Origin: Paludibacteraceae bacterium
Lineage (GTDB): Bacteria > Bacteroidota > Bacteroidia > Bacteroidales > Paludibacteraceae
Direction of reading: 5' to 3'
Assembly (NCBI GenBank): GCA_024401455.1
Contig: JAKSLA010000007.1
Location: 1-64,000, forward strand
Length of the DNA stretch: 64,000 bases
Part shown: positions 1 through 42,005 of the stretch, in pieces
Numbering within the stretch: position 1 is the stretch's first letter
Layout of the letters: each line of letters opens with the position of its first letter
Made by a program: the position numbers and the translations under genes
The notes under the pieces: generated by a model
Told to the model about the DNA's origin: nothing
What the model saw: the letters and a program-made list of their open reading frames with translations, nothing else
The model's database searches: none

Positions 1-84
1 GGTAACCAACAATGGTCAGGCGTAAAAGAACTTTTTAGTAGAAACAATCTACAATTTCGTGAAAGTAATAGTACTGATCCTTAA
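1..84 (+). CDS. C-terminal-looking coding fragment, cut by the window edge
   Basis: The frame is open from base 1 to a TAA at 82-84 (27 codons, ending ...FRESNSTDP). It is the same frame as the 905-codon gene that begins at 124, and only 13 sense codons separate them. Those codons (beginning KIASLFVIAIKDEL) read as ordinary protein sequence and contain no ATG, GTG or TTG. This may be the end of an upstream gene. I think it more likely that it is the N-terminal part of the 905-codon gene, separated by a nonsense mutation. No domain can be recognised in so short a piece. Confidence 0.45.
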   Translation, partial: GNQQWSGVKELFSRNNLQFRESNSTDP

Positions 85-123
85 AAAATTGCATCTCTTT
101 TTGTCATTGCAATAAAAGACGAA

Positions 124-2841
124 TTGTTGAATAATAACTGTATTAGAACAGATTTGGATTACATCAAATATTTGAAGTTCCATTCTGTATTAACCCCAGG
201 TAGAAGAGATGTTTTTGAAGGTGTTTTGTATGACCACAACATTAATTTTTCTGAAGATATTAAATACAACGACATTAGAAATTGGATATGGAGAGTTACA
301 TCAAGAACAACACTAAACAATTTTAAAGACGAATTGCTAGATAATGCAAATAGACAGTATTTTGAGACCATTATTAAAACATTTGATAGAGAGGAATATC
401 GAGAGAAGAAACTGACGACTCTAAGTAAACAGACAAAAGTTGCAGAACGTTTGGATGGAAAGTTCCGTTTTGTCATAGACGCAGAAACACAAAGTCTGTC
501 GGTATGGGTTGAAGGTATTAAAGTTAACCAGGTGCTTCGTAATGACAGAATAAAAATAACTCCAAATTATGTACTTCCCGATAATTACATTGCAGATGTG
601 CCTGATTTGAGTTGGAGTGGATATGCTAGTGAAGGTCTTCAATATAAGGAGTCTGGTATTTGCATAAAGTCTACGCCCTGCAAATCTTGTTATTATTTTG
701 AGATAGTAAATAATAGATGGCTAGTGGAGGTTGCAGAACCTGACAGATTGGCTAATTGTAAATGCTTTTTTGTTACTAATGGCTACAATGATGAACTTGT
801 AAATAGGCATAATGCAAAAGAGGTACCTGTAAATCATGTGTTGAGAAGTTTTTTCCCTAATAACTGGCATATGTATGCAACAAGTTCATATGTTTTGGAA
901 GCTATTGATGAGAATGATGCGGTTAAGGATTCGTTAAATACTAAAACAACATTTGCCCGTGTTGCAATAGATGATGCGATAAGAGCAAATGTTAATGGAA
1001 AGTTATGCTTTATTGCAGAAATGTTCCCTTATATCGTTTTTGAGGGAATAGAATATGAAAACATAAAAATAAAAGCTTTTGATTCAATCGATAAGCACCC
1101 TATTAACTTTAAACAGAAAAATATTGGTGAAAAGATTTATCTCTATGATATTGCGAAGGTACAATCAGGTGAGATGATCTTGGAAATTTACGATAAGGAA
1201 AATAACCGCATTGATTACAATGTAAAAGAGAAGTCGCACTTCCTGATTCGTAACGCTTGTGATGTGCCCGCATATCACGATAAAGAATATGTAAAATTTG
1301 ACAAGTGGTTCTGTTTGACAAATGACGAAGAAACATATTATTCTAATAATCGAGTTTATCCATTAGCAGATAAAACGATTTCTTGGGAAGCAACAACTCA
1401 AAAACCCGTCCAGTCTGAACGCCAAAGTTATTCCAGATTAATGGCAGTGCTTCATGCTATAGGAGATGCGCGTGAACATAACGGTAGAAAAGCAATTCCA
1501 AATTCCGTTTTAGAAAGTGTTCTCAAATATGAGGCAGACTTTAATGAGATCTCGTTGGATAAGTTTCAAATGTATCGTTTGAAAAATGCACTCTGTGAAT
1601 TGGGTGTATTGACGCACTATTATGAAGGGGGGCATTATTATCAGACCAATTCTGCATGTCTTATACCAACAGGTAAAAGATATGTAAAGAATGCCTTATA
1701 TTTTAACGACAGGGGAACTTTTTTTTACATTTTAAGTGGAGCATATAGTAAAATGGATTATGAAATGGCAATAAATAGTGCAGAATATTTTGAATATGTA
1801 CATCAACAAGATCCTTTATACTCTCTACTTCCTCCTGTAGTAAAAGTTGGATTTAAGGATAATGAGGAGTATTCACTCTCAATTCCAGTCAACAAAGATT
1901 GTACATATGATAGCTTGCTTGGTTTTGCGGGTAATATAAATAATTTTGAAACTATCTCAGCTTATACAGATATAAGATATAGGGAATCTTATTCTGACAG
2001 TAATACTACAATGGTTCCATGTATCATTCCAAGAATATCATGCCGAGGAGGAAGACCGGAACAATTACGAATAAATCAAGAGTTAATATTAACTAATCCT
2101 AATCTACCTTTAGCATTACTTCGTAACTATGTTAATTATAAGCATAATAATCCGATCTGGTTTGAGAGCGAGAGAGGAGACATATTTATAAAAGAAGAAA
2201 AAGCAATTCCGTTCTTTGCAAAAAGAGCATTAAACTCCTATTCTGGCAACTTGTCAAAAGAAGTTTACGTGTTTGGAGTTGACAACATTATAGGTGGTTG
2301 TGAAAAACGTTTATTTGAAAGATTAATAACATATACGTTGCCGACTGGAGGAGCAAGAAACAATGTTCTCAGAATGTTAAGCAAGGTATTATGTGGGGGA
2401 ACTGCGCCAATTTCAGAAGTTACGATCCCTAAAGAGAACAGATTGAAGAATCTAAGTTTGTTTGTTTATAAAACAAAGGTCTCTGATGTTGATATGTGGT
2501 GGTTGGAACTATCATATAAGAACAATGTGGTTTGTTTTTCTGATCCGTATAGCAGAGAAATATATTGTATGTATGATGATGGTTTTCACAGAATGATACG
2601 AACAGATGAGCGCAATGTCGAGATAAATGACTCTCACTCGTTTAACGAACGTTTCTCAAAGGTCATAAAGCTATATGATGACTGTTATAATTTCAATGTT
2701 CAGGATTTATATGTTGTGAAAGATGAAAAAGGTAACGTAGTAAAGGATCGTTCTATAGAACTTGATTTATCTTCTGACATGGAACTGCCATCAAATAATT
2801 ATGAATCCAAATTTAAGAATGAAGTAATAATACTGAGATAA
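124..2841 (+). CDS. Unrecognised ~905-aa protein, partner of the DUF1998 helicase
   Basis: I do not recognise the family. The protein is soluble-looking, with no signal peptide or membrane segment. A helical stretch around residues 430-500 (QSERQSYSRLMAVLHAIG...) resembles a winged-helix region. The C-terminal third is beta-rich, with many Tyr, Trp and Cys residues. The only start codons near the 5' end are TTGs at 124 and 127; the first ATG is codon 250 (871), so the annotated start is doubtful and the frame may continue upstream through the TAA at 82-84. The helicase gene follows after 3 bases, so the two are almost certainly co-transcribed. A large unknown protein beside a DruE-like helicase is the layout of type III Druantia (DruH-DruE), but the match is by position only. 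Base composition is clearly more AT-rich than the housekeeping genes later in the window, which suggests horizontal acquisition. Confidence 0.7.
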   Translation: MLNNNCIRTDLDYIKYLKFHSVLTPGRRDVFEGVLYDHNINFSEDIKYNDIRNWIWRVTSRTTLNNFKDELLDNANRQYFETIIKTFDREEYREKKLTTLSKQTKVAERLDGKFRFVIDAETQSLSVWVEGIKVNQVLRNDRIKITPNYVLPDNYIADVPDLSWSGYASEGLQYKESGICIKSTPCKSCYYFEIVNNRWLVEVAEPDRLANCKCFFVTNGYNDELVNRHNAKEVPVNHVLRSFFPNNWHMYATSSYVLEAIDENDAVKDSLNTKTTFARVAIDDAIRANVNGKLCFIAEMFPYIVFEGIEYENIKIKAFDSIDKHPINFKQKNIGEKIYLYDIAKVQSGEMILEIYDKENNRIDYNVKEKSHFLIRNACDVPAYHDKEYVKFDKWFCLTNDEETYYSNNRVYPLADKTISWEATTQKPVQSERQSYSRLMAVLHAIGDAREHNGRKAIPNSVLESVLKYEADFNEISLDKFQMYRLKNALCELGVLTHYYEGGHYYQTNSACLIPTGKRYVKNALYFNDRGTFFYILSGAYSKMDYEMAINSAEYFEYVHQQDPLYSLLPPVVKVGFKDNEEYSLSIPVNKDCTYDSLLGFAGNINNFETISAYTDIRYRESYSDSNTTMVPCIIPRISCRGGRPEQLRINQELILTNPNLPLALLRNYVNYKHNNPIWFESERGDIFIKEEKAIPFFAKRALNSYSGNLSKEVYVFGVDNIIGGCEKRLFERLITYTLPTGGARNNVLRMLSKVLCGGTAPISEVTIPKENRLKNLSLFVYKTKVSDVDMWWLELSYKNNVVCFSDPYSREIYCMYDDGFHRMIRTDERNVEINDSHSFNERFSKVIKLYDDCYNFNVQDLYVVKDEKGNVVKDRSIELDLSSDMELPSNNYESKFKNEVIILR

Positions 2842-2844
2842 GTT

Positions 2845-5800
2845 ATGAAAAATAATTATGAAGAGTTGCTTCCTGTTGATCCAATAGGAGCACTCAACAA
2901 GATTAAAGAAAACTACAAACGTTATTTCAATACGTTTTATCGTTTCAATGATAGCGAATTGGAGCAGAAGAAACGCGAGGCATTTGAATCGCCCAAAGAC
3001 AAGGTGGCATATCGTGAACCATATGTGGAAATGCTACCAGAATACCAATCTTGTGGTAATTTGCTGGAGGATTACATTGCCAATGATCCAGATCTGAACA
3101 GAGCATTTGAGAATTTCCCTGAATATGCAGAGTTCATAAAAAGGGGATTAATGAATTATAAGCCTTATCAACACCAGGTGGATATGCTGAAGAGTGCATA
3201 TGTTGGTATCAATGGCAAACATAATACCATCATCACTTCTGGTACCGGTTCTGGTAAGACTGAGTCATTCATGCTTCCATTGCTTGCTTCGTTGCTACAC
3301 GAAGTAAAGCAAAGAAATGCAAATGGTCAGACACAGTCATACCCAACAGATTGGATGAATAAGGATGAGTATGATAAACCATATCAGCGCCAGAACGAAA
3401 CAGATGGTCATGCAGCTATCCGTGCACTTATCATGTATCCTATGAATGCACTAGTTGAGGACCAGTTGACACGTCTGCGCGAGGCTCTTGATTCAGATAA
3501 GGTTCGTTCTTATCTTGATGGTACTTTCGGAGGTAACCGAATATTCTTTGGACAATATAATGGATCAACCATTGGTGGTGGGAAAACGATAGCTGATTAT
3601 GCTGCATTAGGTACTAAAAAAGCAACAAAGGCGTTTGAGGGTATTGCAAACCAAGTAAAGTCTGTAAAGGCAGAATATGATGCTCTTGTTGCACATATTG
3701 CAGAAAAAGAAACTGCAATGAATAATGCAAAAGCTGCTTATGGTGAAACGTCAGACGAATATAAGAAAGCAAAAAAGGACTATAAAAAAGCAAAAAGTGC
3801 AAGGTATATCTCACCAAGGTTAACTGATCAAGTGGCATGTTCCGAGATGATCACTCGCTGGGATATGCAGGCATGTCCACCTGATATATTGATCACCAAC
3901 TACTCTATGTTGAGCATCATGATGATGCGCCACACAGAGAAGGATATGATAGAGAAAACCAGAAAATGGTTCACCGCTGAAGATCTGCCAGAGGATCAAC
4001 GAGAAGAAGCAAAGAAAGACAGAATCTTCCATCTGGTTATAGATGAGTTGCACCTTTACCGTAATACTTCAGGTACCGAGATAGCATTCCTTATCAGAAT
4101 GTTCTTGGAGGCAATAGGCGTGCCACCAACAATCGTGGATGCTACAGGAAAACATATTCCTAACCCTCAACTCCGTATCTTGGCATCAAGTGCATCATTT
4201 GGTGATGGGGAAAAAACAGAAAAGTTTGCTAGGCAGTTCTTTGGAACATACTATGATGACACCGTGGACCCAAGCGATGATCCAAAGGAGTTTGTATTCA
4301 ACATCGTAAATGGAATAGACTATAATACAGGCAGCAATAATCCAAGTAGTATAGACTATAATGACTTTGCAGTATTTGATAGTTCATATATAGTTGCAGA
4401 TGACGCAGAAAAGAAAGTTATTAAAGATGGCTTACTATCTAAATATAGTTGTACTTCTATACAAGAATTCATAAAGAAATATGCAGATGGAATCTTTAAC
4501 GATTTCCGTAAAGCAATGACCCGAAATGTCGGTGGCGAGGAAAAAGTATGCCCTGTAGATATTGAAAAATTATACACGGGTCTTAATTGCACGGAAGAAG
4601 CTTTAAGAGGATTCTTTATTTTCAGAGCAGACGAGGAGGTTAATGAATATTGCTCTGATCCATATTCGCAGAAGTTGCCTCGATTCCGTTTCCATCAGTA
4701 TTTCCGCTATGTTGATGGACTATGGGGTGAACTGACACCACCTGTTGCTCGATCTGGTAAGAATGATAGTGTGATAGGTGATGTTATGTTCCATGCCCGT
4801 CCAATACACAATCAACATAGAGTTCTTGAACTTATGCGCTGTGAATGTTGTGGAGAATTATTTGTTGGAGGTAATGTTCCACTTAATATAAATAGAAGCA
4901 AGAAGGATGTTACGTTCTCTTTGAACTGCCCTGAGTTGGATAAGATACCAAATCGCAATCCGACTCCGATGGTTCAGAATAAGAAATACAAAGAGTATGC
5001 TGTGTTCTGGCCAACAACACAAGACAAAGATATTAAATATAAAGAAGACAAGGATAACAAACTTAAAAACTATCCACATAAAGGAGGTGATAGAAGTCTG
5101 GGAAATGTAAAATGGGAAAAGGCCTGGCTTAATCCTTTTGATGGAACATGTTCTGTGTTAAACGATAGAGACCATCAAAATTGGATTGAAGGCTATTTAT
5201 ATATTACAGATGCAAGTGAAGATGTCCCAGCTCTTCCTGCAGTGTGCCCTCATTGTGATAAAGATTATCGCAAGCGTCAGTATACTTTCTCGCCAATACG
5301 TAACTTCCGTACTGGTATCAAGCGTAACAATCAGATATTGTCAAAAGAATTGATCTACCAGCTTCCTGCTGATGATAGAAAACTCATCGGCTTCTCTGAT
5401 AGCCGTCAGGATGCAGCAGAGCAGGCTCAGGGTATTGCCTTGGAGCATTATCGTGATATGGTGCGCTTGCTCTTTATGCAAGAGGTTGATAATGGAATGC
5501 AGAACGATTCTGTTGCATTGGCCGACTTCAAAAATTCGATAAAGGACTATGGTATTGGAAGAAGAACAAAACAAAATGTTGTAGATAGCAATACTTTGAC
5601 AAGCGATGAAAAGACTGAGATATTAAACATTCTCAATGATACTGTTCTCGATGATGATGCTAAGGAAAATGCAATATCCGCTATTAGTGTTGCTAAATCA
5701 GACATTCCATTAGATACTTTCGTTAAAGAGATTGGTGAAACTGGGCCTGATGGTTTATTAGTTAATGCACTGAAAGGTCTCGGAATCAATCCTGCTGGAT

Positions 5801-8800
5801 CTGCGCATAAGATGCAGGATTTTGGTGGGAGACATTGGTCTGAGCATTTCTTTACGGCAAATCCTATAAATAATTACTATCAAGCTCATGTGAAGATTAG
5901 GAATAGATATGTTGATTATACGGAAATGGTAGCAAAATTGTTGGAGGCAGCAATATGTAAAAACTCTTTTGGACAATTTATGGGTGTTAGTTCTGAAGAG
6001 GTCGGTTTGGGGTATATCACATATGTATTCAAGAGTGATGCTTTGAATAGTTTGCAGAGATGGAGATATGATAACGATGCACAGGAAATGATGTCAGCTA
6101 TTATTCGAGTGTTAGGTGACAACTACCGATATGAAGATCCAGAAGGATTTGCTGACACAACCAGTTTTTCTTTAAGTGGTTCCGAAGCAAATGCATTCAA
6201 AAGAGTTTTGGCCAAGTATCTTGAAAAAAATGGTGTGTCTAGAGATGAAATATATGGACCGCAAGGTGGATTGTCCAACCCTGGGCCTGATTTGACAAAT
6301 TTCCTCAATGTCATTTCAAATATTTTGGATAGCGCAACTATAAAAGTCAATAATGTAGACAAACCATTGTTCAGACAAAGTGATGCTAATAGATATATAC
6401 AAGGTGTACAATTGCCATTATCTCATATGGTATTCCATAAAGTGAATGCTGAAGACAATTATTATGTGTGTGACACGTGTGGACGAGTTCACTTACATAA
6501 AGGTTTGGGTGTATGTACTAATTCGCAATGCAAAAAAGGCAAGTTGATTTTTGCAACTGATGATAGTGGTAGACTACTGACAGTAAAAGACTTGCGTGCC
6601 GACAACTATATTGCATACGATATAGATATGGAGCCTCGCAAGGCTTATAGATTGCATACAGAGGAGTTGACTGGTCAAACTGATGAACAGGGAGAACGTT
6701 TGCTTCAATTCAAGGGTGTGATTGTAAATAATAGTAATATACCACCTGAAAACAAGCAGAACATTGCAAAAGCAAAAGAGATAGACATGCTTAATGTAAC
6801 CACGACAATGGAAGTTGGTGTGGATATTGGTAGTTTGCTTGCTGTCTATCAAGGTAATATGCCACCTACACGATACAACTATCAACAGCGCGTTGGTCGT
6901 GGCGGTCGTCGTGGTCAGGCTTTCTCTGCTGCTGTAACATTCTGTAGAGGTAAGAGTCACGACTCATATTACTACAACGAAGGTATTGATGAAATGACTG
7001 GAGGTAAGCCTGCTACCCCGAAGCTGGCTGTATATCAATGTGCAACGAATGATACTATCGTAAAGCGCGTAATCGCTAAAGACATATTGCAGAAGGCATT
7101 TGCTAAGTGTGTGCCTTATGATGTGGTTCATTATACTCTTGAAAATATCAATGATACCTGTGGTGAATTTGATACTGTTGGTGCTTGGAACTCACATAAG
7201 GCAGATATTCAGAATTGGATTAACGCGAACCCTGAAATCATTAATAAGGTTGCAGAAACATATCTGAAACAATATGCCGATTCAAGAAGTATCACTAACA
7301 TTGTCAACTGGGTTAAAAATGATCTTGTTGGCTTAATAGATGGAGCATACGATAACGCTCATTCTACAGACATGGGATTGGCTCAATGTTTGGCTGAACA
7401 GGGAATCTTACCAATGTATGGAATGCCAAGTTCTATTCGTGAGTTTTATCATGGATATAAGAAAGGCCGTAATGATGAAAAAAATGGCGAATTCTTATCT
7501 ATTGATAGACCTGTTGAACAATCCATAACAGAGTTTGCACCTGGTGCTATCAAAACTAAAGATCATGGCGAATACATGTCCAATGGTTTAACTGTGCCTG
7601 CTATGACCAAGAGAGTTAATGATCCTTCTGCATTTACTTTAGATGAGAAAAAAAGATGGGATGCTTTGGAACATTCTTTCCTTTTGATAAAGGATGCCGA
7701 CGGAACAATTAATGACATTAGACCTAAAGACGACAATATGAACTTTAGTGATGATGGAATGGATATGAGTAGATTACGCCTAGTCGTTCCTAAAGCATAC
7801 CGTAGTAGTAAGTTGAAAGACAACAATGGTGATGTTAAGGACAATGACGACAGAGGCAACTATTCTCAAGCAATACTATGGGCAAAGGATTCTGGATCAG
7901 CCTCTCCTCAGAAGTTTGGTAATGTAGAAGTGCGGTATTGGCCAAGTGGACAAGGCTCTGAAAATGGTGTGTGGTATGTCAATGACAACAATGGTGAACT
8001 TTTCGAGGGTCGTCAGCAGTACACACATACTATAGAAGACATAGACCCTGTAAAGTTGATAAATAACAGGGGTAGATATGTATTAGATAATAGCATTTCC
8101 GATAAAATTAAGGATGAAATCGCAAAGATAGCTCCAAATTTTATTGTTGGAAGAGAAGGCATTCCAAGTGCAAAATTTGGTGATACAATGAAAATCGCCC
8201 TGGGTGCTAATAAGCGTACAGAACTCTTGAAAATAGCAGTATCATCTGTTAATCCAAATGTTTGCCTCAATACAACTATTGGCAACCGTCCTGCTATTAT
8301 TGCTGCATTCTACTCTGCTGCGGCATTGATACAGCGTGTCTTTGCTGATGAGATGGATATTGTTCCTGAGGAGTTGGAAATCACCGAAATAAAGATTGGT
8401 GAAGATGATGTCCCTTCAATATATCTTAATGATGCATTGGTAAATGGTTCCGGCTATGTAAATATGCTCGTATCCGCATATGTTGATTCCAATGGAAAGT
8501 CATGGGATACTATGCTCGAATATATAATGAATAAGATCATTAATTTTGAGGGTACATTCATGCGGAGCATAAAGAACCATCAAAAAAATTGCCAAACAGC
8601 ATGTGTTAAGTGTCTACAGACTTTCTATAATGCAGGATATCATCATGTATTGGATTGGCGATTGGGTGTGGATTTGATAAAACTAATGCTTGATCCTGAT
8701 TATACGATGGGAGTTGACGACTACAGCACCCCATATGGCGATTTGGCAGATATTATTGATGTTGCTGGTCAAGGAGCAGATCATGCAGATTCTTCGGTTT

Positions 8801-8964
8801 TTTATGATAACACAAAGAAGGAACTTACGTTTAATAGATCAATTGTAAAAGTCGTACATCCTCTATGGACGAATAATGGAGGCGCTTCGCAGGATTTCTT
8901 TACGATATTACGTAAAGGATTTGTAAAATCCAATAATTCCGGTGGCAACATTTTAGGAATTTAA
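2845..8964 (+). CDS. DruE/DrmB-like SF2 helicase with DUF1998 (MZB) zinc domain, 2039 aa
   Basis: Very large DEAD/DEAH helicase of the DUF1998 group used in anti-phage systems such as Druantia (DruE) and DISARM (DrmB). Walker A GTGSGKT lies at residues 133-139, the DExH box is DELH at 400-403, and motif VI is QQRVGRGGRRG from 1347, just after TTMEVGVDIGS. The MZB zinc site is C1916, C1920, C1923, followed by LDWRLG. Extra Cys pairs (RCECCG, CPHCD, CDTCG with a later CTNSQC) suggest further zinc knuckles between and after the helicase lobes. The N-terminus (DPIGALNKI...YREPYVEMLPEYQS) has the layout seen in DruE-type proteins, and the length fits DruE (about 1800-2100) better than DrmB. It probably moves along or remodels invading DNA. 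It starts 3 bases after the 905-aa gene and ends at a strong terminator, so it is the last gene of its operon. Confidence 0.85.
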   Translation: MKNNYEELLPVDPIGALNKIKENYKRYFNTFYRFNDSELEQKKREAFESPKDKVAYREPYVEMLPEYQSCGNLLEDYIANDPDLNRAFENFPEYAEFIKRGLMNYKPYQHQVDMLKSAYVGINGKHNTIITSGTGSGKTESFMLPLLASLLHEVKQRNANGQTQSYPTDWMNKDEYDKPYQRQNETDGHAAIRALIMYPMNALVEDQLTRLREALDSDKVRSYLDGTFGGNRIFFGQYNGSTIGGGKTIADYAALGTKKATKAFEGIANQVKSVKAEYDALVAHIAEKETAMNNAKAAYGETSDEYKKAKKDYKKAKSARYISPRLTDQVACSEMITRWDMQACPPDILITNYSMLSIMMMRHTEKDMIEKTRKWFTAEDLPEDQREEAKKDRIFHLVIDELHLYRNTSGTEIAFLIRMFLEAIGVPPTIVDATGKHIPNPQLRILASSASFGDGEKTEKFARQFFGTYYDDTVDPSDDPKEFVFNIVNGIDYNTGSNNPSSIDYNDFAVFDSSYIVADDAEKKVIKDGLLSKYSCTSIQEFIKKYADGIFNDFRKAMTRNVGGEEKVCPVDIEKLYTGLNCTEEALRGFFIFRADEEVNEYCSDPYSQKLPRFRFHQYFRYVDGLWGELTPPVARSGKNDSVIGDVMFHARPIHNQHRVLELMRCECCGELFVGGNVPLNINRSKKDVTFSLNCPELDKIPNRNPTPMVQNKKYKEYAVFWPTTQDKDIKYKEDKDNKLKNYPHKGGDRSLGNVKWEKAWLNPFDGTCSVLNDRDHQNWIEGYLYITDASEDVPALPAVCPHCDKDYRKRQYTFSPIRNFRTGIKRNNQILSKELIYQLPADDRKLIGFSDSRQDAAEQAQGIALEHYRDMVRLLFMQEVDNGMQNDSVALADFKNSIKDYGIGRRTKQNVVDSNTLTSDEKTEILNILNDTVLDDDAKENAISAISVAKSDIPLDTFVKEIGETGPDGLLVNALKGLGINPAGSAHKMQDFGGRHWSEHFFTANPINNYYQAHVKIRNRYVDYTEMVAKLLEAAICKNSFGQFMGVSSEEVGLGYITYVFKSDALNSLQRWRYDNDAQEMMSAIIRVLGDNYRYEDPEGFADTTSFSLSGSEANAFKRVLAKYLEKNGVSRDEIYGPQGGLSNPGPDLTNFLNVISNILDSATIKVNNVDKPLFRQSDANRYIQGVQLPLSHMVFHKVNAEDNYYVCDTCGRVHLHKGLGVCTNSQCKKGKLIFATDDSGRLLTVKDLRADNYIAYDIDMEPRKAYRLHTEELTGQTDEQGERLLQFKGVIVNNSNIPPENKQNIAKAKEIDMLNVTTTMEVGVDIGSLLAVYQGNMPPTRYNYQQRVGRGGRRGQAFSAAVTFCRGKSHDSYYYNEGIDEMTGGKPATPKLAVYQCATNDTIVKRVIAKDILQKAFAKCVPYDVVHYTLENINDTCGEFDTVGAWNSHKADIQNWINANPEIINKVAETYLKQYADSRSITNIVNWVKNDLVGLIDGAYDNAHSTDMGLAQCLAEQGILPMYGMPSSIREFYHGYKKGRNDEKNGEFLSIDRPVEQSITEFAPGAIKTKDHGEYMSNGLTVPAMTKRVNDPSAFTLDEKKRWDALEHSFLLIKDADGTINDIRPKDDNMNFSDDGMDMSRLRLVVPKAYRSSKLKDNNGDVKDNDDRGNYSQAILWAKDSGSASPQKFGNVEVRYWPSGQGSENGVWYVNDNNGELFEGRQQYTHTIEDIDPVKLINNRGRYVLDNSISDKIKDEIAKIAPNFIVGREGIPSAKFGDTMKIALGANKRTELLKIAVSSVNPNVCLNTTIGNRPAIIAAFYSAAALIQRVFADEMDIVPEELEITEIKIGEDDVPSIYLNDALVNGSGYVNMLVSAYVDSNGKSWDTMLEYIMNKIINFEGTFMRSIKNHQKNCQTACVKCLQTFYNAGYHHVLDWRLGVDLIKLMLDPDYTMGVDDYSTPYGDLADIIDVAGQGADHADSSVFYDNTKKELTFNRSIVKVVHPLWTNNGGASQDFFTILRKGFVKSNNSGGNILGI

Positions 8965-8980
8965 TTGTTGTGATATATTC

Positions 8981-9018
8981 AAAAAAAAAAGCATCGTCAA
9001 GATTGGCGATGCTTTTTT
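8981..9018 (+). terminator. Rho-independent terminator after the helicase gene
   Basis: A perfect stem, AAAAAAGCATCG (8985-8996) with CGATGCTTTTTT (9007-9018), has a 10-base loop and a run of T. It lies 17 bases after the helicase stop. The A-run on the left arm would let it work in both directions. Confidence 0.9.
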
Positions 9019-9118
9019 GAACGTAAGCCTACGTGGGAAGTCTGAGAAAAAGTAGCAGTTCTTGTGCATAGTACGAGACTTCAACTATAATTAGTTAGTA
9101 AGACATTAGTAAGGATTT

Positions 9119-9375
9119 CTATTTACGAGGGACCAAGTTCTTCCAATTTCTCGGCAAAAGTTCTGACAAGTCCTTGTTCTCCTGTTGTCTATGTTTATCC
9201 TTCCGTCGTTGACATACCTCGACAACCTTGGGAGCAGCGAGTAGGTGTATGCCTCCTTCTCGACTTTGTATAGGAGGGCGATCATGTTGACGGCCTCGCT
9301 CGCGTGGGCCTTGTCCTCGTCCAGGGCATCCACGAACTTCCGTCGGGCGTACGCCCAACATCCACAGACAGTGAT
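9119..9375 (-). pseudogene. IS66-family transposase remnant
   Basis: The minus-strand translation gives ITVCGCWAYARRKFVDAL followed by an AVNMIALLYKVEKEAY segment, which is the conserved GCWAHxRRKF...LYxIE part of IS66 transposases. It then jumps to SRYVNDGRINIDN, a C-terminal motif normally some tens of residues further on. A different frame continues with ELLPRNWK, which resembles the family C-terminus. The piece is therefore internally deleted and frameshifted. A TAA lies in frame a few codons upstream of the preserved part. Its GC content is visibly higher than that of the helicase operon. A GTAAGCCTACG sequence just after the terminator (from 9024) could be an eroded IS66 end, since IS66 termini begin with GTAA, but no matching opposite end was found. 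Confidence 0.75.
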
Positions 9376-9857: not shown

Positions 9858-9916
9858 CAATGCGCAGTCGGGCCAAAAACGACGACTTTTTATATTTTTG
9901 GCCCGACTGTGCATTG
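9858..9916 (+). repeat. 22-bp inverted repeat upstream of the ATPase gene
   Basis: The left arm, 9858-9879, includes GCGCAGTCGGGCC. The right arm, 9895-9916, includes GGCCCGACTGTGC. They pair over 22 bases with a single G-T exception and enclose a 15-base loop. T-runs follow on both sides, so it could be a bidirectional terminator. It could equally be the recognition end of a mobile cassette or an operator, since the ATPase start codon is only 30 bases away. The right arm overlaps a TATTTTTG (9893-9900) that fits the TAnnTTTG -7 box. Confidence 0.7.
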
Positions 9917-9945
9917 TTTTTCAATTTTATTACGTACCTTGCAGT

Positions 9946-11355
9946 ATGGAAAAAATAATAGGAAGACAAGAAGAGTTCGCTAAGTTCTCGAAGTTCATGG
10001 GAAGCGGCAGAGGTGAATTTGTCGCTGTGTATGGTCGCAGACGTGTTGGAAAAACATTTCTGATACGTCAGTACTTCAAGGATAAATTTGATTTCTACGT
10101 CACGGGAATCATTGACGGTTCGCGTGACGAAGAAATGGCTGTCTTCAATGAGGCCCTAACAGAGTATGGCCACAAAGGAGAAAAAGCGAAGACATGGATG
10201 GAGGCATTTGGATTCCTAGCCAATCTTTTGCAATCGAAGAAGAAAAGAGAAAAACGTCTGGTGGTGTTTATTGACGAGCTACCTTGTTTCGACACCCCTA
10301 ACGCACGATTCGTACATGCGCTGAGTCATTTCTGGAACAGCAAGGGCGCATGGATTGACAACTTGTTTTTTGTGGTATGTGGTTCTGCTACTTCATGGAT
10401 GATAAAGAATGTCATTGATAACCATGGAGGTCTGCACAACCGTATTACTCACGAAATACATTTGCACCCTTTTGATTTGCATGAGACAGAGGAGTATCTC
10501 AAAAACAATGGTATGCGCTGGAATCGTCTGTCAATTATTCAGATATACATGGCTTTGGGAGGCATCCCCTATTACCTTGGAATGTTGGACAGAACAATGA
10601 GTGTGGCAGAAAACATCGATACCCTGTTTTTTAGTGATGATGCGGAACTGAGAAAAGAATATCCTCGCCTTTTCAAATCTCTTTTCAAAGATCCCGAGAA
10701 TTACGTTACACTCGTCAATGTACTAGCTGAATGCAAACAAGGAATGACCCGGAACGAAATAGCAGAACTGCCTCAATTCAAAAGCAATGGCCATCTGACT
10801 GTAATGCTGGGGAACCTAGTCAGCTGCGACTTTGTTCGTCTATACAACAATGGTACAAAGCAGAATGGTGGCATCTATCAGTTGACGGATTTCTATACAT
10901 TGTTCTATATTAACTTCTGCAAAAGACGTACGACGGATGACCACTATTGGCGCAATCATCTTGATACCACCACGATGAACAATTGGTATGGACTCGCTTA
11001 CGAAAGAGTATGTATGTACCATTTCAGAAACATCATACGTGCGCTGCGACTCGACTCCATTCATACGGAGTTCTATTCATGGAGAAGCAAAACAAGTTCT
11101 CCTGGTGCACAGATAGATATGGTAATAGATCGCTCTGATAATGTTGTGACAATATGTGAAGTGAAGTATTCCAAGGGCGACTACCTACTCAAGAAATCAG
11201 AATACGAAAAAGTACTCAATCGCATCAGTACATTCGAAGACGAGAAGAAGAGTCGAAAGGCCATCCACCCCATAGCAATTACAACTTTCGGAATAAAGCA
11301 AAACGAATATTCCGATGTTTTTCATAAAACCTTGACAATGGACGATTTATTCTAA
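9946..11355 (+). CDS. AAA-like ATPase with DUF234 C-terminal nuclease-like domain
   Basis: 469-aa member of the ATPase_2/DUF234 family, common in Bacteroidales and archaea, often in many copies, with no settled function. Walker A is GRRRVGKT at residues 30-37 and Walker B is VVFIDELP with D110/E111. The middle contains a winged-helix-like region (GMTRNEIAELPQF...). The C-terminus carries D391 (AQIDMVID) and E405-V-K407 (ICEVKYSKGDY), the D-(x)n-ExK pattern of the PD-(D/E)XK fold. I chose the ATG at 9946 (MEKIIGRQEEF) rather than an upstream TTG inside the inverted repeat, because the family begins at IGRxxE. It is a stand-alone gene, flanked by the inverted repeat and by two copies of a foreign gene start, which suggests insertion as a cassette. 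Confidence 0.85.
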   Translation: MEKIIGRQEEFAKFSKFMGSGRGEFVAVYGRRRVGKTFLIRQYFKDKFDFYVTGIIDGSRDEEMAVFNEALTEYGHKGEKAKTWMEAFGFLANLLQSKKKREKRLVVFIDELPCFDTPNARFVHALSHFWNSKGAWIDNLFFVVCGSATSWMIKNVIDNHGGLHNRITHEIHLHPFDLHETEEYLKNNGMRWNRLSIIQIYMALGGIPYYLGMLDRTMSVAENIDTLFFSDDAELRKEYPRLFKSLFKDPENYVTLVNVLAECKQGMTRNEIAELPQFKSNGHLTVMLGNLVSCDFVRLYNNGTKQNGGIYQLTDFYTLFYINFCKRRTTDDHYWRNHLDTTTMNNWYGLAYERVCMYHFRNIIRALRLDSIHTEFYSWRSKTSSPGAQIDMVIDRSDNVVTICEVKYSKGDYLLKKSEYEKVLNRISTFEDEKKSRKAIHPIAITTFGIKQNEYSDVFHKTLTMDDLF

Positions 11356-17341: not shown

Positions 17342-20300
17342 CTATTTCATATAAACAACCTCTATCGAACCTTGGAAAGATCGGGTGTTCAACTGAACAT
17401 CATAGAAATAGACTCCAGGATCGACACGGCCTCCCGGTGTAGTACCATCCCATCCATCATTTCCATCAAAAACTCTCTGTCCGTAACGGTCGAAGATTGT
17501 CACCTTTCTACCCTTCATAAAGTAGTCATTTAGACCATCCTTATTAAACGGAGTGAATGCCGTCGGCAACTTATCCATAACATTCAATCGGTAAACATTT
17601 GAAGGCATTGCAGGACAAACGCCATCACCAATTAAGACATAATACAAAGAAGAATCTTCAGCCGCAAAACTAAGTTCATTCTTTCTATCAACATCATCCA
17701 TATAAACAATGACATCTTCCTCGTCTGTTGACAAACTATCAATCCTTTCACCATACTTATCGTATGCATTAGGACGAACACCGTCATATTTACCGTTTAC
17801 TTCCATCCAAATATAGAATGAAGGGTTGTAAGGTGTGCTTACCTTAAATGTAACCTCGTCGCCAACCCAGATTGAATTTGACGGCAATTCCGAAAGTGGA
17901 GCAAGGAATATGCTATCAGACGAATATCTTCTATTAATAATAAAGACAATACTATCTTTAGAATGAAGTTCATCCTTTCTCCACAACTCCAAATCGCGTT
18001 CAGAACCGACCAACATCAAAGAGTCATGTTTGGTCTTTGGCGTTGAATCTGCACAATATGTAAAGTAACTATCATAAGTAGTTGTGCGTCCACACTCATT
18101 TTCTGCGAAGTAATACATTGTTTGCGGTTTACCGACATAAGGGAGAGGCGTTCCCTCCTCATAATCCACTCCATTGATTACCCAACCCGTCTTAGTGATA
18201 TCCAATCCCATTGCATCGAGACAAACATCATGATCAAAGTACAAATCATCAACATCCAACGTGTCGTTTTCACAATGATAGAACGTATCACAAAGCATTG
18301 CCAAGCGAGGGCGCTCGTTAATCGTCAAATATGCAGAAGCCGTATCCTTACATTGTGTAATCGTATCCTCAACCACGAAATAATAAAGTCCCGTTTGAGC
18401 CTTCTTCCTAAGATTAACTCTCGACTTATAAATTGAGTCACGCACTGCATTATCAGGGTGAGCGAATTTATGAGCATACGTTCTTGGGTTATTACTATAA
18501 ACCAAAGTTTGCTCAGAGATAGACTCCTTATAACAATCATACCTGAAGACGCTTGGCGCTGTTTGGAATTCGTCAGATGACTCATCATCATAGTGAACCT
18601 TACCTACGGCAAAACGAACTTCTTGTGACATCAAGTTGACAGATGAAGTATCTGAACCACACAACACCAACGACGTTGCTTCCAAGCTTACGATGTTCTC
18701 TACCTTATCCACAAAGACAACCAATTTCACCGAATCTTTGTTACCACACAAATCGGCAGCATAAATGTGGACAGTAGTCGTCTCTTTCAACTTTACTCCT
18801 GCACTTGGCACCTGCCATATACGGATGTCATCAGGCTCCGTACATCCATCCGTAACATGGTCTTTCAACAAATCTGTCAAGATAGGCATTTCCATCTCAC
18901 AGTTTTTAACGTTGTTAGCCAAGACCGTATCGCGCCAATTATCAGGCAAAGTGAACTTAGGTGCAGTCGTATCAACAATCATTACCACCTGAACCAAAGG
19001 AGCACTTACATTACCACAACTGTCGATAGCCTTCCAAGTTCTCCAAATCTTATAGCTGTTATAGTCACAAGATCTTGGATCAGAAGATCTATTATTGGTT
19101 TCGCTATAATCAATCTTAATCTTATCGACAGCAGTACAGTTATCTGTAACTGAAATTTCAATCAAATCAGGAGAAGGAATCTCTTGATCACAAGCCACCG
19201 TCAACGTATCCAAAGTCGTTGAAATAACAGGAGCAGTAACATCATGGATAATGAACTCCTGATCACAAGTTATCAAAGAATCACGCACATCTTCGACAAA
19301 ATATGTACGAATCAAATGGTAATCACATGGTGCAGAGCCTTGCTCTCTCTCCTTGTATCCAAACGAACCTGGCTTGTATTTTTGAATCTCAGAAATAGAT
19401 CCGCCTGCTGCTTGGAACTCCTCGAACGTCTGGTAAGGTGTAGGAATCTCACCATAGCACTCATATGTCGTATTAGTCAATTCAGGACAAATCAATACTG
19501 GAGGAACCATATCTTGGATGTCCACAACTTGCGTACATACCTTTTGGTCGCCAAACACATAGTCGAACGTCCAATATACTTTAGTTAATCCGATTTGATA
19601 ATCATCTGTCATCGACAAATTATCAGAACGAGAGAATGAAAGCGTTGCCGCGTTGCAAGTATCGATTTCAATCTGAGGCTCCTTCAAACCTGCCAAACGT
19701 ACCTCATCGGCCGTTGCATAGAACTTCTCCAACAAATTAACCGTAATGGTATCAGCAAGGACGGAGCAATCGAACAATTCTGTCTTCACAATCAACGTCT
19801 TTTCACATGAGTCCTTCATAACACCCAACTTGTCAACAAATATCCAACGGATATCCGTTCTTCCAAGAGGGAAATCTTGCGAATCCCATGCAATAGGCAT
19901 ACCGTTTGCATCCACCACCAACTCTCCATTAAACCTTCTCTCTACGCGTGGGATGACATACTCTTCATCACACATATCGTATGCCGTTGGGAATTTCATG
20001 TGAGCCTCCAATTCTGAAGCAGGCAAACTACACTCTCCCTTCGGCAAGGTTACAATCTTCATCTTGTCTATATCGCAATCAGACAACACCAAATCCACTG
20101 AATCGGCTACTGTCAAAGCCATATTACAAGAATCTTGAAGGCCAGCCTTGTCTGTATAGATCCAAACGAAATCGTGTGTACCTACCGGATAGCGAGCAGA
20201 CAACAACTCATCATCCGTGTAAACAATAACGGAACCGTCCTTTTGCTTAACACGAGCGATAACCTTTGGATACAATATTCCGTCACAAGGGTCATCTACG

Positions 20301-23300
20301 GTTGGATTCTCCAATCCCAAAGCATTATAATCAACAGAACACTCTACTGTAGCATAGACTGTCTTTGTTGGGTCTTGACAATTGTGAGGTGTTGGAGGAG
20401 TAACATCCTTAACCTCCAAGCTTTGGTAACAAACTTTAGTGTTACCTTCATTATCTGTAAACACCCATGAAATCAAATATACAGTATCCTTCTTGAAGAA
20501 CTCAGGCAAATCAATATAAGACGAATCGGCCAAAGTCATCATCGGCACACCAATAATCTTACCATCACAGTTGTCCGTTCCCTCACGAGTACCCAAATTC
20601 TTACGAACATACTCTTCAGAAGCGGCACATGAATCAGCATCCAATTCAATAACAATAGGATCCAAGTCGCCACAGTCTGGAACAAATGGCGGAATTGTAT
20701 CTATCACTGTCACCAATTGTTCACATTGCGCTATATTCTGTGCTGCATCCTCAAATGTCCAAATAATCAAGGTCTCTCCCTTAGGATATGGATCTGTATA
20801 AAGATTTTTACCATCAGGAGCCCATGCACCATTTATCATTATATGACGGACACCGACAGCCTTAATTGAATCTCCGGTTGGAGAACAAGGGTCATCCTTT
20901 GCTCTCGGAGTTGACTTGTCTGTAACAACCGAGTCAGCAGGAGCCTCACAGTTCTCATTAGCATATGCAGTTATTGGCTTCAATGATTTACAATCAAAGA
21001 ACGGAGGCAATGTATCAAGAACTGTAATTGTCTGAACACATTCGCTTGAATTATTTGACTCATCCGTTACTATCCAAGTGATAGTTGTCTTTCCCAATGG
21101 GTAAGCAGCCTCAAGAGTCGGCACATTAGCACCTTCAAATTTACGGACCCATTCGATTTTAATATGACTTGGATCAGAGCAATTGTCTGAAACATTCAAC
21201 GAATCGACATTAGGAATTCGGAGGGCAACCTTTTCTGAAGGCACGACACAAGTAGTATCGCAATAGAAGAACGACTCCTCACCCCACTTTCCACAATTCT
21301 TTGTTGGTGGGATGGTATCCAAGACCGTGAATTTAGTCACACAACTATCCAAGACACCTTTACCATTATCAAAATACCATACCACAATATGACGGCCTTT
21401 GCCAAACGGATCGGTCACACAAGCAGGCAATTCCGTAAAGTTGTTCACTTTCAACTTCATCGTCTCAATCTCGTCTTTCTTACAGATTGACTTATCCGGA
21501 TTTCTATGGTGAACCTCCTTAACCGGAACATTGTCATTTTCAGCAAATACATTCTCACAATCAGAGACTACGGTCGAATCCTTAATGGATTTCCAATTCT
21601 CATCCAAGAAACTGTAACGACGGACCATATAAGGATAACCCAACGTATCATATGTCTTTGACAACTCTGCACTCATGCCCAAAGAGTTGTAGTCATAAGA
21701 AGAACCACCTGAACAATTATCATATATGTATTTTACCTCTTTAAAGTAAGGAATGGTAGCCGTAGGGACTTGGTTCAATGTAATGTTCCACTTTACCAAA
21801 CAATCATCATCAACATAAAGCGTCGTATCCTTAGGACAGTCATTTGGCTCTGGCGCATCCTTAGAAGCGACAATCACCTTTTGACCACATATCAAAGTAT
21901 CTTTCTTGCCTCTTACGGTATCATTATCCGTAACAAAACGATACGTAATCTCAGTCAAACCAACTGGGAACTTATGTTTCAAGAAATCGGCATCGGACAC
22001 CAACGAATCTACAGCCACCGCAATCACATCTCCGTTATCGTCGATACACTCACCCGTAATCAAGATATCCAACTTCACCTCGCCACAATATGAAGCATTA
22101 GGAGTTGGCACTTTCAAGACATCAGCCAACATATACTTCGTATCTGGATTAGGCGTTTTTTGCGCCATAGCGGATGCATAATGATATTGCAAACCGGCCT
22201 TGCTTTCATTGACTGACGTACGAATATCTTCCAACGACTCACATTTAAACACATCGCCCTCGTTAACTACCGTTACGCTGCTATGACAGTAGGATGCCAA
22301 CCCAGAAGGATCTTCGTACTTCCATAATATATATGTCACACCTTTCTTATACGGTGCATTCAAATCAACCGAAGTTGAATACTTGGAAGGATCGAGTCCA
22401 GGATCCTCTTCTGGATTCACTTCTGAACGACCAGCATACTTACCTTCTATGATAATAACGGTATCAGTGAATGTCAAATCTCTCAAAGGCTTTGGCTCCA
22501 AATTTGGAAGTTGAGGATGAGTACCAGGTTTAGCCTCACAACCATCCTCCTTAGTGATAGATACATGATAACTATCTATCTCGTCACAATTAATGCGTGG
22601 ACGTGTGGTATCAACAACCGTCAAATCTATCTGACATGTCGCATGTTTGCCACAACCATCAACCAAATCATATTTTACCGTACCCTTACCTGCAAACAAA
22701 TTAAACTTCAAGTTCTCTTTGTCTGAAATTTGAGCATTGTGCAATACAAATGTTGAGTCCAAATTATGAATTGGCTCCGCGCCCCTATAAGAGATAACCA
22801 CATTCAACGCTGGGTCATCGTCACAACTTGTAGCATACTCCGGAATTGGAAGATAAATTAGCGTATCCAATTGAGAAGAGCGTAACTCGTACGTGTTAGG
22901 CGAAGATAATTTGTCACAATTGATTGTCGGGTCATCCGTTGATTGAACATAGAACGTATCCTTTATTTCCGACTTACATACATTATTCACGACTTCTAAT
23001 GCCACAGGGAAATTAGCATTGGTTGAATTACACAAAGCACCCTTGTTGTAGCCATTCAAGTGGATTACGCCGTTTGCATCCATTGTCGCTCCCGTGAAGT
23101 TCCATACATAACCAGCAATATCTTCCTTGTTTTGAAGTATAATCGTATCTGAAGATGTAGCCGCACAAATGGAGTCTTCTCCTCGGCGAGTCACAAAGTT
23201 GAGACGAGATACATTTGGTTTGTCATACACCCAAAGAGTTATCGTATCTGCACCCGAAGGTTTGGCTGCAACTGTATTGCCATTTATATTATGTACACCC

Positions 23301-25451: not shown

Positions 25452-26429
25452 TTACCAATAAGTCACCGGACAAGGGTATTTCTCTGTTTTCTTATACACA
25501 TATATGAAATTAATCTCATGAGACCAAGAGCCGTTTTTCTTTGACGAGGTAAACAAATCATATACATAATAGACCTGCAAGCCTTTAAAATGACCTCCTA
25601 ACATAAATGCGATAATATTCACTTCATCCAAGTTGTTCTTATCAGAGACACCTAAAATCAACGGATCCCAGGCCACACCCACGCCTGCATTGAGTTGCTG
25701 ATAGACATCTTGATTTTGATAACTTACATTAGAAAAGAAGTAGTTATCCGACAAATCTGCCCTACCCCACAATCCATTACTATATTGCAAATCCTGGAAA
25801 AAACTAAGATGCCCGACAAATTTTCTCCGGAGTATGTTCTCCTCCAATTCGACAAAACCATTGCTTGGCTCGGCTATATGATAAACAGAGGCTCCGACCG
25901 TCAACCTATTCTGAATGACATAGGCTGCTCCTGCAGAGAAATCAAAAAATGCACGTGAGTCATTATCGAAATTCTCCAATGTCTCCAACGTCGGTTTTCT
26001 TGTATTTCTGTCATACTGGTCACCATACTTGATTCGATCCCAACCAAATTGATTGATGAAGACGGTAGCCTGCAATCCCAAGCGCAAAAACATCTCGTCC
26101 TGCAATTTCATCGTATGCGCATAGGCCAACGACAACTCGTTCACGCTATAGACACTGCTTGCCATATTATCATAAGCATAGGCGAAACCGACGGAACACA
26201 TCTGCTTATAGAAATTCTGGTCATAAGAGGCTCTGAATGTATGATAGTTATTGCCCAACGCCATCCACTGTTGACGATAGTTCAACCCTACACGAATGGC
26301 ATTTGCATTTCCAGCCAAAGCCGGGTTCAGACTAAAAGGAGTAAGATTATGATTGACCATGGAGAAATCTTGGGCCAACAACGTTCCCCCAAACAAACTC
26401 ACTATCAAAAGAAACAACCACTTTTTCAT
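25452..26429 (-). CDS. PorP/SprF family T9SS outer-membrane protein (second copy)
   Basis: 325 aa. The signal peptide MKKWLFLLIVSLFGGTLLA is followed by QDFSMVNHNLTPFSLNPALAGN, the NPAxxG N-terminal signature of the family. A beta-barrel with repeated aromatic strands ends in INFIYVYKKTEKYP. It starts 16 bases after the stop of the 1515-aa cargo gene, so it is co-transcribed with it and probably helps export or anchor it. The 2534-aa cargo lies next downstream. Compared with the copy at 11510 it is diverged, not a recent duplicate. Confidence 0.85.
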   Translation of the reverse strand: MKKWLFLLIVSLFGGTLLAQDFSMVNHNLTPFSLNPALAGNANAIRVGLNYRQQWMALGNNYHTFRASYDQNFYKQMCSVGFAYAYDNMASSVYSVNELSLAYAHTMKLQDEMFLRLGLQATVFINQFGWDRIKYGDQYDRNTRKPTLETLENFDNDSRAFFDFSAGAAYVIQNRLTVGASVYHIAEPSNGFVELEENILRRKFVGHLSFFQDLQYSNGLWGRADLSDNYFFSNVSYQNQDVYQQLNAGVGVAWDPLILGVSDKNNLDEVNIIAFMLGGHFKGLQVYYVYDLFTSSKKNGSWSHEINFIYVYKKTEKYPCPVTYW

Positions 26430-40367: not shown

Positions 40368-40379
40368 ATGGTTTTTATC

Positions 40380-42005
40380 ATGAAAAACAAAATTCACTTT
40401 CAGAAGGGCAGTTCTCTGCTCGTCAGTTTACTTGCATTAACACTGACTCCGACCTCGCTTTACGCGAAGACATTTTCCGTCAAAAACGCATCTGGTGTTG
40501 AGATTACCTACACCACATCTGACGAGAACCCACAAAATGCAAAAGTTGCGAGCAACAGCATTGACAAAGAGACCGTCACCGAACTGCAAATTCCAGAAAC
40601 CATAACTTACAATGGTGCCAACTATACAGTCACGGGCATATCAGACAGCGCATTCATCTGGTGCGACAAATTGACCTCCGTCCGCCTTCCTCAATCCATC
40701 CAAACCATTGGCGACAATGCTTTTGAAGACGCACTAAGTTTAAAGGAGATTGAGATTCCGAACGGAGTGACAACCATCGGGCAAAAAGCCTTCTACGATT
40801 GTCACAAACTGACCAAAGCCGCTCTTCCAAAATCATTGATTTCCATAGGGAACGACGCATTCGCATTCTGCGGAAGTTTGGAAGAAATTGAACTATCCAA
40901 CAACATTAAATCAATCGGTGCAGGTGCTTTTTACGATTGCCAAAAGTTAAAGAGCATAACCCTACCCAACAACATAACTGAAATTGGGGCCAACACTTTC
41001 TACAAATGTCACGATTTGGCCGAGGCCAACATTCCAAGCAAAGTCACCAGCATAGGCGATTATGCCTTCTTCGAATGCGAGAGCCTCACTAAAATAAAAT
41101 TGCCAAGCAGCCTCACCAAAATTGGAGATGGTGCTTTTTCAAAATGCGCTGCCATCAAGGCCATCACCATTCCCAACAGCGTAAAGGAGTTAGGAGAAAG
41201 AGTATTCCACGAATGCGAAAACTTGGAAGAGGTGAAATTGACCAACAAAGTGACCTCCATTCCTAACGGCACATTCTTCGGTTGCTCTTCTTTGAAAAAA
41301 AGCGCGATTCCGAACGCCATCACCACCATCGGCGATTATGCGTTCTATCAATGCACCAGCATGACCGAGGTCGAAATCAGCGACAAAGTGGAGAACATCG
41401 GAGACCACGCATTCAATGCCTGCAACTCCCTTGTTGCCATCACCGTTGACAAGGGCAACAACAACTACAGCAGTCAAGATGGCATCCTTTACAACAAGGA
41501 GATGACAGATTTAATCCAATATCCAGCCAACAAAGCAGACAAATCTTTCACCATCCCAGACGGGGTAAAAAAGATAATGGACAATGCTTTCTACAAATGC
41601 AAGAACATCGAAAATGTGACAAGCCCCAATAGTTTGACCGAGATCGGGAAATTTGCATTCTACTATTGCAACGGCATCACAAAAGTCGTCATTCCTCAAT
41701 CTGTCAAAACCATAGACAATGGAGCCTTCAGCATGTGCAGAAACTTAAAAGAGATAAACTTGCCGAAAGGACTGACAGAAATTGCGATGGGAACATTCAG
41801 CGGTTGCACCAACCTCAACAACGTAATCATTCCAGAAGGAGTCACTTCCATAGGAAACCTTGCATTCTATAAATGCACGAATCTCAGCCACTTGGAACTT
41901 CCGACAACCATCTCAAGCATAGGTAAGAATGCCTTCATCGGCACAAAAACAATCTATGCCGAGGAGGATGAGTCGAACCGATTCAAAGACAGCATAACAT
42001 TCTAA
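40380..42005 (+). CDS. BspA-like leucine-rich-repeat (LRR_5) secreted protein
   Basis: 541 aa from ATG 40380 (MKNKIHFQKGSSLL); an ATG 12 bases upstream is also possible. A signal peptide ends ...TSLYA. After a short N-terminal cap come about 18 LRR_5 repeats of 23 residues with the pattern ITxIGxxAFxxCxxLxxVxIPxSV, the BspA/TpLRR type. BspA-like proteins bind fibronectin or other cells. Unlike the large cargo proteins here, it ends in a last repeat (SSIGKNAFIGTK) with no CHU_C or Por sorting domain, so how it is held on the cell is unclear. The stop overlaps the cobQ start by one base (TAATG). Confidence 0.9.
   Translation: MKNKIHFQKGSSLLVSLLALTLTPTSLYAKTFSVKNASGVEITYTTSDENPQNAKVASNSIDKETVTELQIPETITYNGANYTVTGISDSAFIWCDKLTSVRLPQSIQTIGDNAFEDALSLKEIEIPNGVTTIGQKAFYDCHKLTKAALPKSLISIGNDAFAFCGSLEEIELSNNIKSIGAGAFYDCQKLKSITLPNNITEIGANTFYKCHDLAEANIPSKVTSIGDYAFFECESLTKIKLPSSLTKIGDGAFSKCAAIKAITIPNSVKELGERVFHECENLEEVKLTNKVTSIPNGTFFGCSSLKKSAIPNAITTIGDYAFYQCTSMTEVEISDKVENIGDHAFNACNSLVAITVDKGNNNYSSQDGILYNKEMTDLIQYPANKADKSFTIPDGVKKIMDNAFYKCKNIENVTSPNSLTEIGKFAFYYCNGITKVVIPQSVKTIDNGAFSMCRNLKEINLPKGLTEIAMGTFSGCTNLNNVIIPEGVTSIGNLAFYKCTNLSHLELPTTISSIGKNAFIGTKTIYAEEDESNRFKDSITF

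Follow-up and report, generated by a model that had tools for sequence, protein, structure and literature searches.

A divergent Druantia-family locus in a Paludibacteraceae genome is probably the 3' part of a three-gene operon with a candidate nuclease-helicase

The window analyzed here is a 64,000-nucleotide stretch of DNA from a Paludibacteraceae bacterium (GenBank assembly GCA_024401455.1, contig JAKSLA010000007.1, positions 1 to 64,000), and our subject is the locus at its left end, where two open reading frames (ORFs), 124-2841 (905 amino acids [aa], TTG start) and 2845-8964 (2039 aa, ATG start), lie 3 bases apart. The original prediction described the two frames and their spacing correctly and took them for a two-gene system, a helicase with a partner of unrecognized family. 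We consider it probable that the locus is instead the 3' portion of a three-gene operon from the Druantia family, presumably with an anti-phage role, in which a nuclease-helicase gene (NH) is followed by a fusion of druF- and druL-like sequences (druF/L; product, DruF-L) and then by druE. Computation supports which genes the operon holds, their order and frame, and their motifs, and the best reading of these is a three-gene Druantia variant in which NH would replace DruK and a dedicated methylase is lacking. The features of the locus are as follows.

1-2841, plus strand: putative druF-druL-like gene, 3' part, about 945 codons, of which ORF 124-2841 is an internal fragment (from the L041 alignment and C111 overlap described below)
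82-84, plus strand: in-frame TAA in the partner frame
2845-8964, plus strand: druE, open frame for a 2039-aa YprA/DruE-type helicase of superfamily 2 (SF2), Druantia II/IV branch by PADLOC, with a match to a solved chain
3241-3261, plus strand: DruE Walker A, GTGSGKT, residues 133-139, invariant in three complete clade rows
3607-3804, plus strand: DruE insertion, about residues 255-320, Lys/Glu/Ala-rich, with a coiled-coil look by eye, partly missing in the G101 alignment row
4042-4053, plus strand: DruE motif II, D-E-L-H, residues 400-403, from the clade alignment
6886-6915, plus strand: DruE motif VI, QRVGRGGRRG, residues 1348-1357, from the clade alignment
8590-8613, plus strand: DruE C-terminal Cys-x3-Cys-x2-Cys, residues 1916-1923, a putative MZB-type zinc site, invariant in four aligned clade members

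Model scores assign the 2039-aa DruE to the Druantia II/IV branch and not to type III, because the PADLOC DruE2 models scored 1361.4 and 1285.5 bits and DruE4 scored 1148.4, against 172 to 230 for DruE3; DruE1 scored 456.3. The SF2 helicase motifs named in the original prediction are borne out by Pfam (DEAD, 44.4 bits; Helicase_C, 24.3 bits), and Walker A, motif II, and motif VI are the names that we take to apply to the three motif sites above. Among solved structures, chain 9wae_A (1970 aa, seven entries, named "Helicase") matched the window DruE at 559 bits, and the solved helicase 9tu7 matched at 84 bits. The predicted MZB/DUF1998 site held in part: the cysteine motif is present and the PADLOC DruE model alignment extends to residue 2011, but Pfam gave no DUF1998 match at an E value of ≤1. 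According to PMC12458937, Druantia II carries a coiled-coil insertion in RecA1, and at the end of the helicases of Druantia I and II lies a Vsr nuclease that is predicted to be inactivated.

The partner gene does not appear to begin at 124. Window base 1 is base 1 of contig C87 (77,039 bp), such that anything upstream is invisible in the window. The partner frame opens with TTG, contains no in-frame ATG before codon 250, and aligns to its relative at locus L041 only from residue 205 of the latter. When the first 127 window bases were compared to the window's own genome (G000; 119 contigs, 90.3% completeness, 5.28% contamination), contig C111 (9,382 bp) matched at its very end with 82% identity, and the other matches were short, with E values above 0.3. 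The C111 tail and window positions 1-144 form an ungapped 144-nucleotide overlap in the same frame (82.6% identity, 25 mismatches). The C111 druF ORF starts with ATG at 8771 and runs for 156 codons before the overlap, and its N terminus matches the L041 DruF (E = 2.6e-5) and, weakly, the canonical DruF profile (hhalign, 54%). Thus, the 5' end of the partner gene appears to lie on C111, and the two-gene system with a 905-aa partner is partly an artifact of a window that starts at a contig edge. The mismatches fall 9/11/5 by codon position, and nine of them sit within window positions 37-47 at a T-run of C111; since they lack third-position bias and cluster in this way, a poorly called consensus at the end of a contig seems a better explanation for them than allelic evolution. 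The TAA at 82-84, where the C111 copy is open, is perhaps another such consensus fault or a strain difference.

How the partner relates to known families emerges only through a complete relative. By itself, it had no match at an E value of ≤1 in PADLOC, Pfam, or NCBIfam, nor any in the first genome collections searched. At L041, however, where DruE is 41% identical to that of the window, the gene directly upstream of druE encodes a 1060-aa protein whose alignment with the partner covers 790 columns (21% identity, E = 6e-17), such that partner residues 13-757 correspond to residues 205-939 of the 1079-codon L041 ORF. The L041 protein in turn matches PADLOC DruF4 through its N terminus (residues 7-52, E = 2.9e-6). 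Moreover, a profile of the L041 protein, the partner, and a piece from genome G101, when compared to ten canonical DruF-L rows (some partial, and two made by concatenating DruF and DruL), scored 93.9 with a probability of 96.8% over 787 columns, against 24.2 for the reversed profile and 24.6 for the best of 50 column shuffles. The alignment extends across the region of DruL and reaches column 901 of 938. We conclude that the partner is probably the C-terminal ~85% of a very divergent, fast-changing DruF-DruL-like protein and not a new family; the case for DruF membership, by way of L041, is good, and the DruL half is likely, without confirmation by a model. The partner was conserved less than DruE in all 36 locus pairs among nine loci, two of which have fragmentary partners. 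We also note that G143 (L018:7117-15989) and G621 (L037:7015-16002) have DruEs that are 76% identical beside DruF-Ls that are 32% identical, possibly by partner-gene swapping.

A third gene appears to precede druF/L. In L041, a 655-aa NH lies directly upstream of druF with a gap of 13 nucleotides, and NH, DruF, and DruE are all encoded on one contig. On C111, the same protein is matched by ORFs 6788-8167 (459 aa; 39% identity, E = 1e-92) and 8182-8763 (193 aa; 45% identity, E = 1e-47), and NH ends 7 nucleotides before druF. The island seems to begin after two GTPase genes, presumably era and der, as these precede the NH ORFs. In G101, NH resides on contig C22, a druF-like N terminus follows 8 nucleotides later (E = 1.7e-11 to L041), and the end of C22 overlaps the start of the DruF piece on contig C80 by exactly 127 identical bases; read in this way, G101 is an independent case of the NH-DruF-DruE order. 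Linkage of the three genes therefore was seen on a single contig in L041, by an exact overlap in G101, and by an imperfect overlap in the window's genome. NH matches Pfam AAA_19 and UvrD-helicase, and its three copies match the PADLOC NERD+UvrD, Nhi, and GajB-like models with E values of 5e-10 to 2e-4, mostly over the helicase part. The motifs DxDxxxxG..[IV]E[LIV]KxH, GxxGxGKT (Walker A), and DE[AG]QD were common to six of six aligned rows, and the first can be read as a PD-(D/E)xK-like signature. NH is therefore a probable PD-(D/E)xK-like nuclease fused to a superfamily 1 (SF1), UvrD-like helicase.

Matches to the window helicase were found in 6 of 300 genomes of the family (E ≤ 1e-30) and, at an E value of ≤1e-60, in 4 of 295 of the order, 8 of 395 of the class, and 7 of 395 of the phylum; these samples overlap, and each count includes the window's own genome. 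Scanning a collection of genome contigs returned three loci, namely L041, which was new, and L042 and L043, which are those of G101 and G037. The DruE tree, which has 16 rows, places the window together with G037 (a fragment), L041, and G101 in a clade with 100/100 support, on a long stem of ~1.6 to 2.1 changes per column. Among the 18 DruE genomes searched, NH was present in three of the four of this clade (G000, G101, and that of L041) and in none of the 14 others. The 11 sister loci have DruK (11/11), DruM (10/11; not G520), and a DruF-type N terminus (9/11; the G183 and G719 contigs break off within DruE), whereas none of the four clade stretches has DruK or DruM. The sixteenth row, G894, falls outside both groups and has a DruF-like gene and neither DruK nor DruM. 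Whole-genome searches, in which all clade members are metagenome or other drafts (85 to 90% complete where given), found no DruK in G000, G101, or G037 and strong matches in the comparison genomes G143 and G417; the genome of L041 gave one weak match (E = 8.9e-4, inside an 878-aa frame). G143 and G417 alone had DruM matches above 470 bits, and the draft clade genomes held only generic C5 methylases of ≤126 bits on other contigs, with none in G037. Finally, DruG had no match among the clade operon proteins scanned (window, L041, C111, and G101, with flanks partly scanned).

The same components also occur on plasmids. NH was found in 6 of 72,556 plasmid records, and in those of Shinella oryzae and Alisedimentitalea scapharcae, a DruF-like gene, druE, and NH stand side by side in that order. 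The DruF-like proteins are 1035 aa (model E = 1.8e-13) in Shinella, whose record has no gene annotation such that ORFs were used, and 1013 aa (model E = 3.8e-18) in Alisedimentitalea. In Sinorhizobium (one of three equal-scoring records was opened), NH follows a DUF1998 gene within a DruE that is fragmented around an IS3 element, and Emticicia has a partial NH only, with no DruE annotated in the 16.9 kb examined. In the tree, neither of the two alphaproteobacterial DruEs is sister to the window clade, and their long branches leave the exact place unsure.

Several observations weigh against a three-gene operon of this kind. The overlap of window and C111 is inexact (82.6%) in a draft genome with 5.28% contamination, NH is split by a frameshift there into the 459- and 193-aa ORFs, and NH was not found in clade member G037 (85% complete). 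The relation of the partner to DruF depends on L041: the partner and the G101 C-terminal piece without it scored 21.6, no better than shuffles, and adding two N-terminal pieces lowered the profile score to 55.5 and the probability to 78% (best of 50 shuffles, 23.6). PADLOC found no DruF in the C111 piece and only an E value of 0.022 in the G101 piece, its DruL model matched none of the clade proteins scanned (window, L041, C111, and G101), and a custom four-sequence model of the DruF N terminus matched none of the four clade stretches at an E value of ≤1e-3. Fold prediction of the partner failed (predicted local distance difference test score, 40), and no nuclease model supports reading NH as a PD-(D/E)xK protein. 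Moreover, the alphaproteobacterial DruF-like proteins match the canonical profile and not that of the clade, and a C5-methylase adjoins both alphaproteobacterial loci; thus, absence of a methylase is a trait of the window's clade only.

The locus might simply be an ordinary but diverged Druantia type IV in which NH is an optional accessory, which we consider unlikely. As defined for PADLOC in the accessible part of PMC8565338, type IV combines DruE and DruF with DruL and lacks DruM and DruG, and the clade does share a II/IV-branch DruE, a DruF-like protein, and the lack of DruM, with a DruE4 score of 1148 bits, the DruF4 match of L041, and no DruG match among the operon proteins scanned. DruE2 outscores DruE4, however, as it also does for the DruE of G143, and the DruF and DruL-like parts are here one protein with an extra C-terminal stretch, with no DruL model match in the clade proteins scanned. 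The long stem of the clade also sets it apart, as does the presence, in place of DruK, of NH, which is not named for type IV in that part of PMC8565338.

Alternatively, DruF-L and DruE could constitute a minimal two-gene Druantia that NH, as a separate defense gene, merely adjoins. The two form a tight pair, 2 to 11 nucleotides apart in G101, the window, and L041, and NH resembles models filed under other systems (Nhi, GajB, NERD+UvrD) and is missing from G037. NH is nevertheless just 13, 8, and 7 nucleotides ahead of druF in L041, G101, and C111, respectively. The trio recurs in another order on two alphaproteobacterial plasmids, NH accompanies a broken DruE in Sinorhizobium, and none of the 14 DruE genomes searched outside the clade has NH. 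We therefore regard this account as improbable, and the system probably has three genes, the partner running onto C111 with NH beyond it.

A further account, to which we give similarly little credence, is that the operon is a decayed remnant, a pseudogene cluster in this strain. NH is split, by a frameshift that lies ~1.2 kb from the C111 end and is not explained by a contig-end fault, and the partner frame has a TAA, such that the window copy could be decaying. DruE and 905 partner codons are open, however, and the TAA lies at a contig end, among mismatches without third-position bias, where the C111 copy is open. Finally, the Druantia III-like (DruH-DruE) variant suggested by the original prediction, which was right as to a Druantia variant with a DruE-type helicase and a defense-type partner, is highly improbable: two adjacent genes for a large helicase and a large partner fit it, but the DruE3 scores are far below the 1361 bits of DruE2, and PADLOC gave no DruH match to the partner (E ≤ 1) or to the complete L041 relative (E ≤ 0.1).

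A three-gene operon of NH, druF/L, and druE bears likenesses to several systems. The four-gene relatives (DruF-L, DruE, DruK, and DruM) belong to the sister DruE lineage and likewise have DruF-L and then DruE; unlike them, the window clade has neither DruK nor DruM and has NH upstream. Druantia type II (Type IV CoCoNuT in the accessible part of PMC12458937) shares the best DruE model and the RecA1 insertion, but no DruM was found in the window clade, nor any DruG among its operon proteins scanned. Type III resembles it in having a large, fast-evolving partner with a DruE-type helicase, and perhaps in its division of labor, and differs in its DruE branch and in that no DruH similarity was found here. 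According to the same part of PMC12458937, TALON and ARMADA II pair a YprA-type helicase with a NERD nuclease and a GajB-like UvrD helicase, respectively, whereas NH is one fused protein; PglX, BrxHII, TPR-CSD, and TBP were not seen among the scanned neighbors (window, L041, C111, and G101, with flanks partly scanned). NH scores weakly against the models of Nhi, NERD+UvrD, and GajB-type proteins and differs from them in being operonic with DruF-DruE. The domain table of a 2023 review lists UvrD and NERD, in the part accessible to us, under other systems and not Druantia (PMC10952713). The literature searched, at the level of titles and abstract openings and with supplements outside the scope, yielded no account of a Druantia gene set that includes a nuclease-helicase, which is weak evidence of absence.

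How such an operon might work is suggested by analogy, and we tentatively offer a mechanism that, taken as a whole, we think slightly less apt to be right than wrong. DruF-L, which diverges rapidly, would sense infection or carry specificity and license DruE. DruE would act as an ATP-driven SF2 helicase that loads on and remodels phage replication DNA. NH would unwind and cut that DNA, in the role of the separate PD-(D/E)xK nuclease DruK of sister systems. Without DruM, protection of self DNA may depend on activation being triggered by infection and not on methylation. The assignment of sensor, engine, and cutter follows the accessible part of PMC13192584, in which DruH is less conserved than DruE and is argued to be the likely sensor, with DruE a helicase-nuclease on replication intermediates. 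There would be room for a separate cutter if the inactivated Vsr end described in PMC12458937 applies to this helicase.

The setting of the locus agrees with the original prediction in part. G+C content per kb is 0.34 to 0.41 across positions 1-9000 and mostly 0.40 to 0.47 in the remaining window, as expected from the AT-rich island proposed. Of the debris said to accompany it, a DUF234-type gene is indeed present as the next feature, with its frame open rather than decayed and a Pfam DUF234 score of 20.6 bits, slightly below the 22.5 cutoff.

9898-11355, plus strand: DUF234-type ATPase, a neighbor (PADLOC PDC-S27, 608.6 bits), outside the operon as far as seen

IS66 is a subthreshold trace only (9106-9330, E = 0.092), and no restriction-modification genes were found among the 13 window ORFs scanned with Pfam, which are part of the window's ORFs. 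Farther along, 17342-24946 encodes a large protein with repeated domains by eye that adjoins a PorP/SprF type IX secretion gene (25452-26429), and 40368-42005 encodes a BspA-type leucine-rich repeat protein (Pfam LRR_5, 630 bits).

Related loci have neighbors of their own. McrB-like AAA and McrC-like genes, a possible type IV restriction pair, are convergent with druE in G101 (L017:3829-6697), and an AbiP2-type reverse transcriptase (PADLOC, 556 bits) lies directly downstream of druE in G037 (L021:2029-3735). In G143, an Mrr-type endonuclease gene (L018:18190-18882) stands behind DruF-DruE-DruK-DruM, and Vsr-like genes, so labeled by eye, flank several sister loci. G894 (L053:7646-17263) and G449 (L078:6551-15808) represent a further DruE branch (~1700 aa) with a DruF-like protein and proteins of 576 to 601 aa and 294 to 298 aa, no DruL or DruK match, and one weak DruG match (E = 0.006), possibly another Druantia arrangement. 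The L041 record is titled Erysipelothrix rhusiopathiae (metagenome-assembled genome [MAG]), even though its DruE falls among rows from Bacteroidales, either through transfer or because of a wrong label.

Druantia II and IV are poorly understood in the literature accessible to us, as regards how DruE finds phage DNA, what the partner does, and which protein cuts. A single NH in place of a separate nuclease and methylase would allow a direct test of sensing, of cutting, and of the need for methylation. Because the partner matches no PADLOC, Pfam, or NCBIfam model, model-based defense finders would miss it in this lineage, and its connection to the third gene would escape them. Ultimately, DruF-L, DruE, and a PD-(D/E)xK-SF1 NH may constitute a further Druantia type, a proposition that we regard as evenly poised. 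Such a type would occur in Bacteroidales-type MAGs and Alphaproteobacteria, in two gene orders and on two DruE branches, with NH having taken the place of DruK and with DruM also gone from the window's clade, and it would tell self from nonself by a fast-evolving sensor rather than by a dedicated methyl mark.

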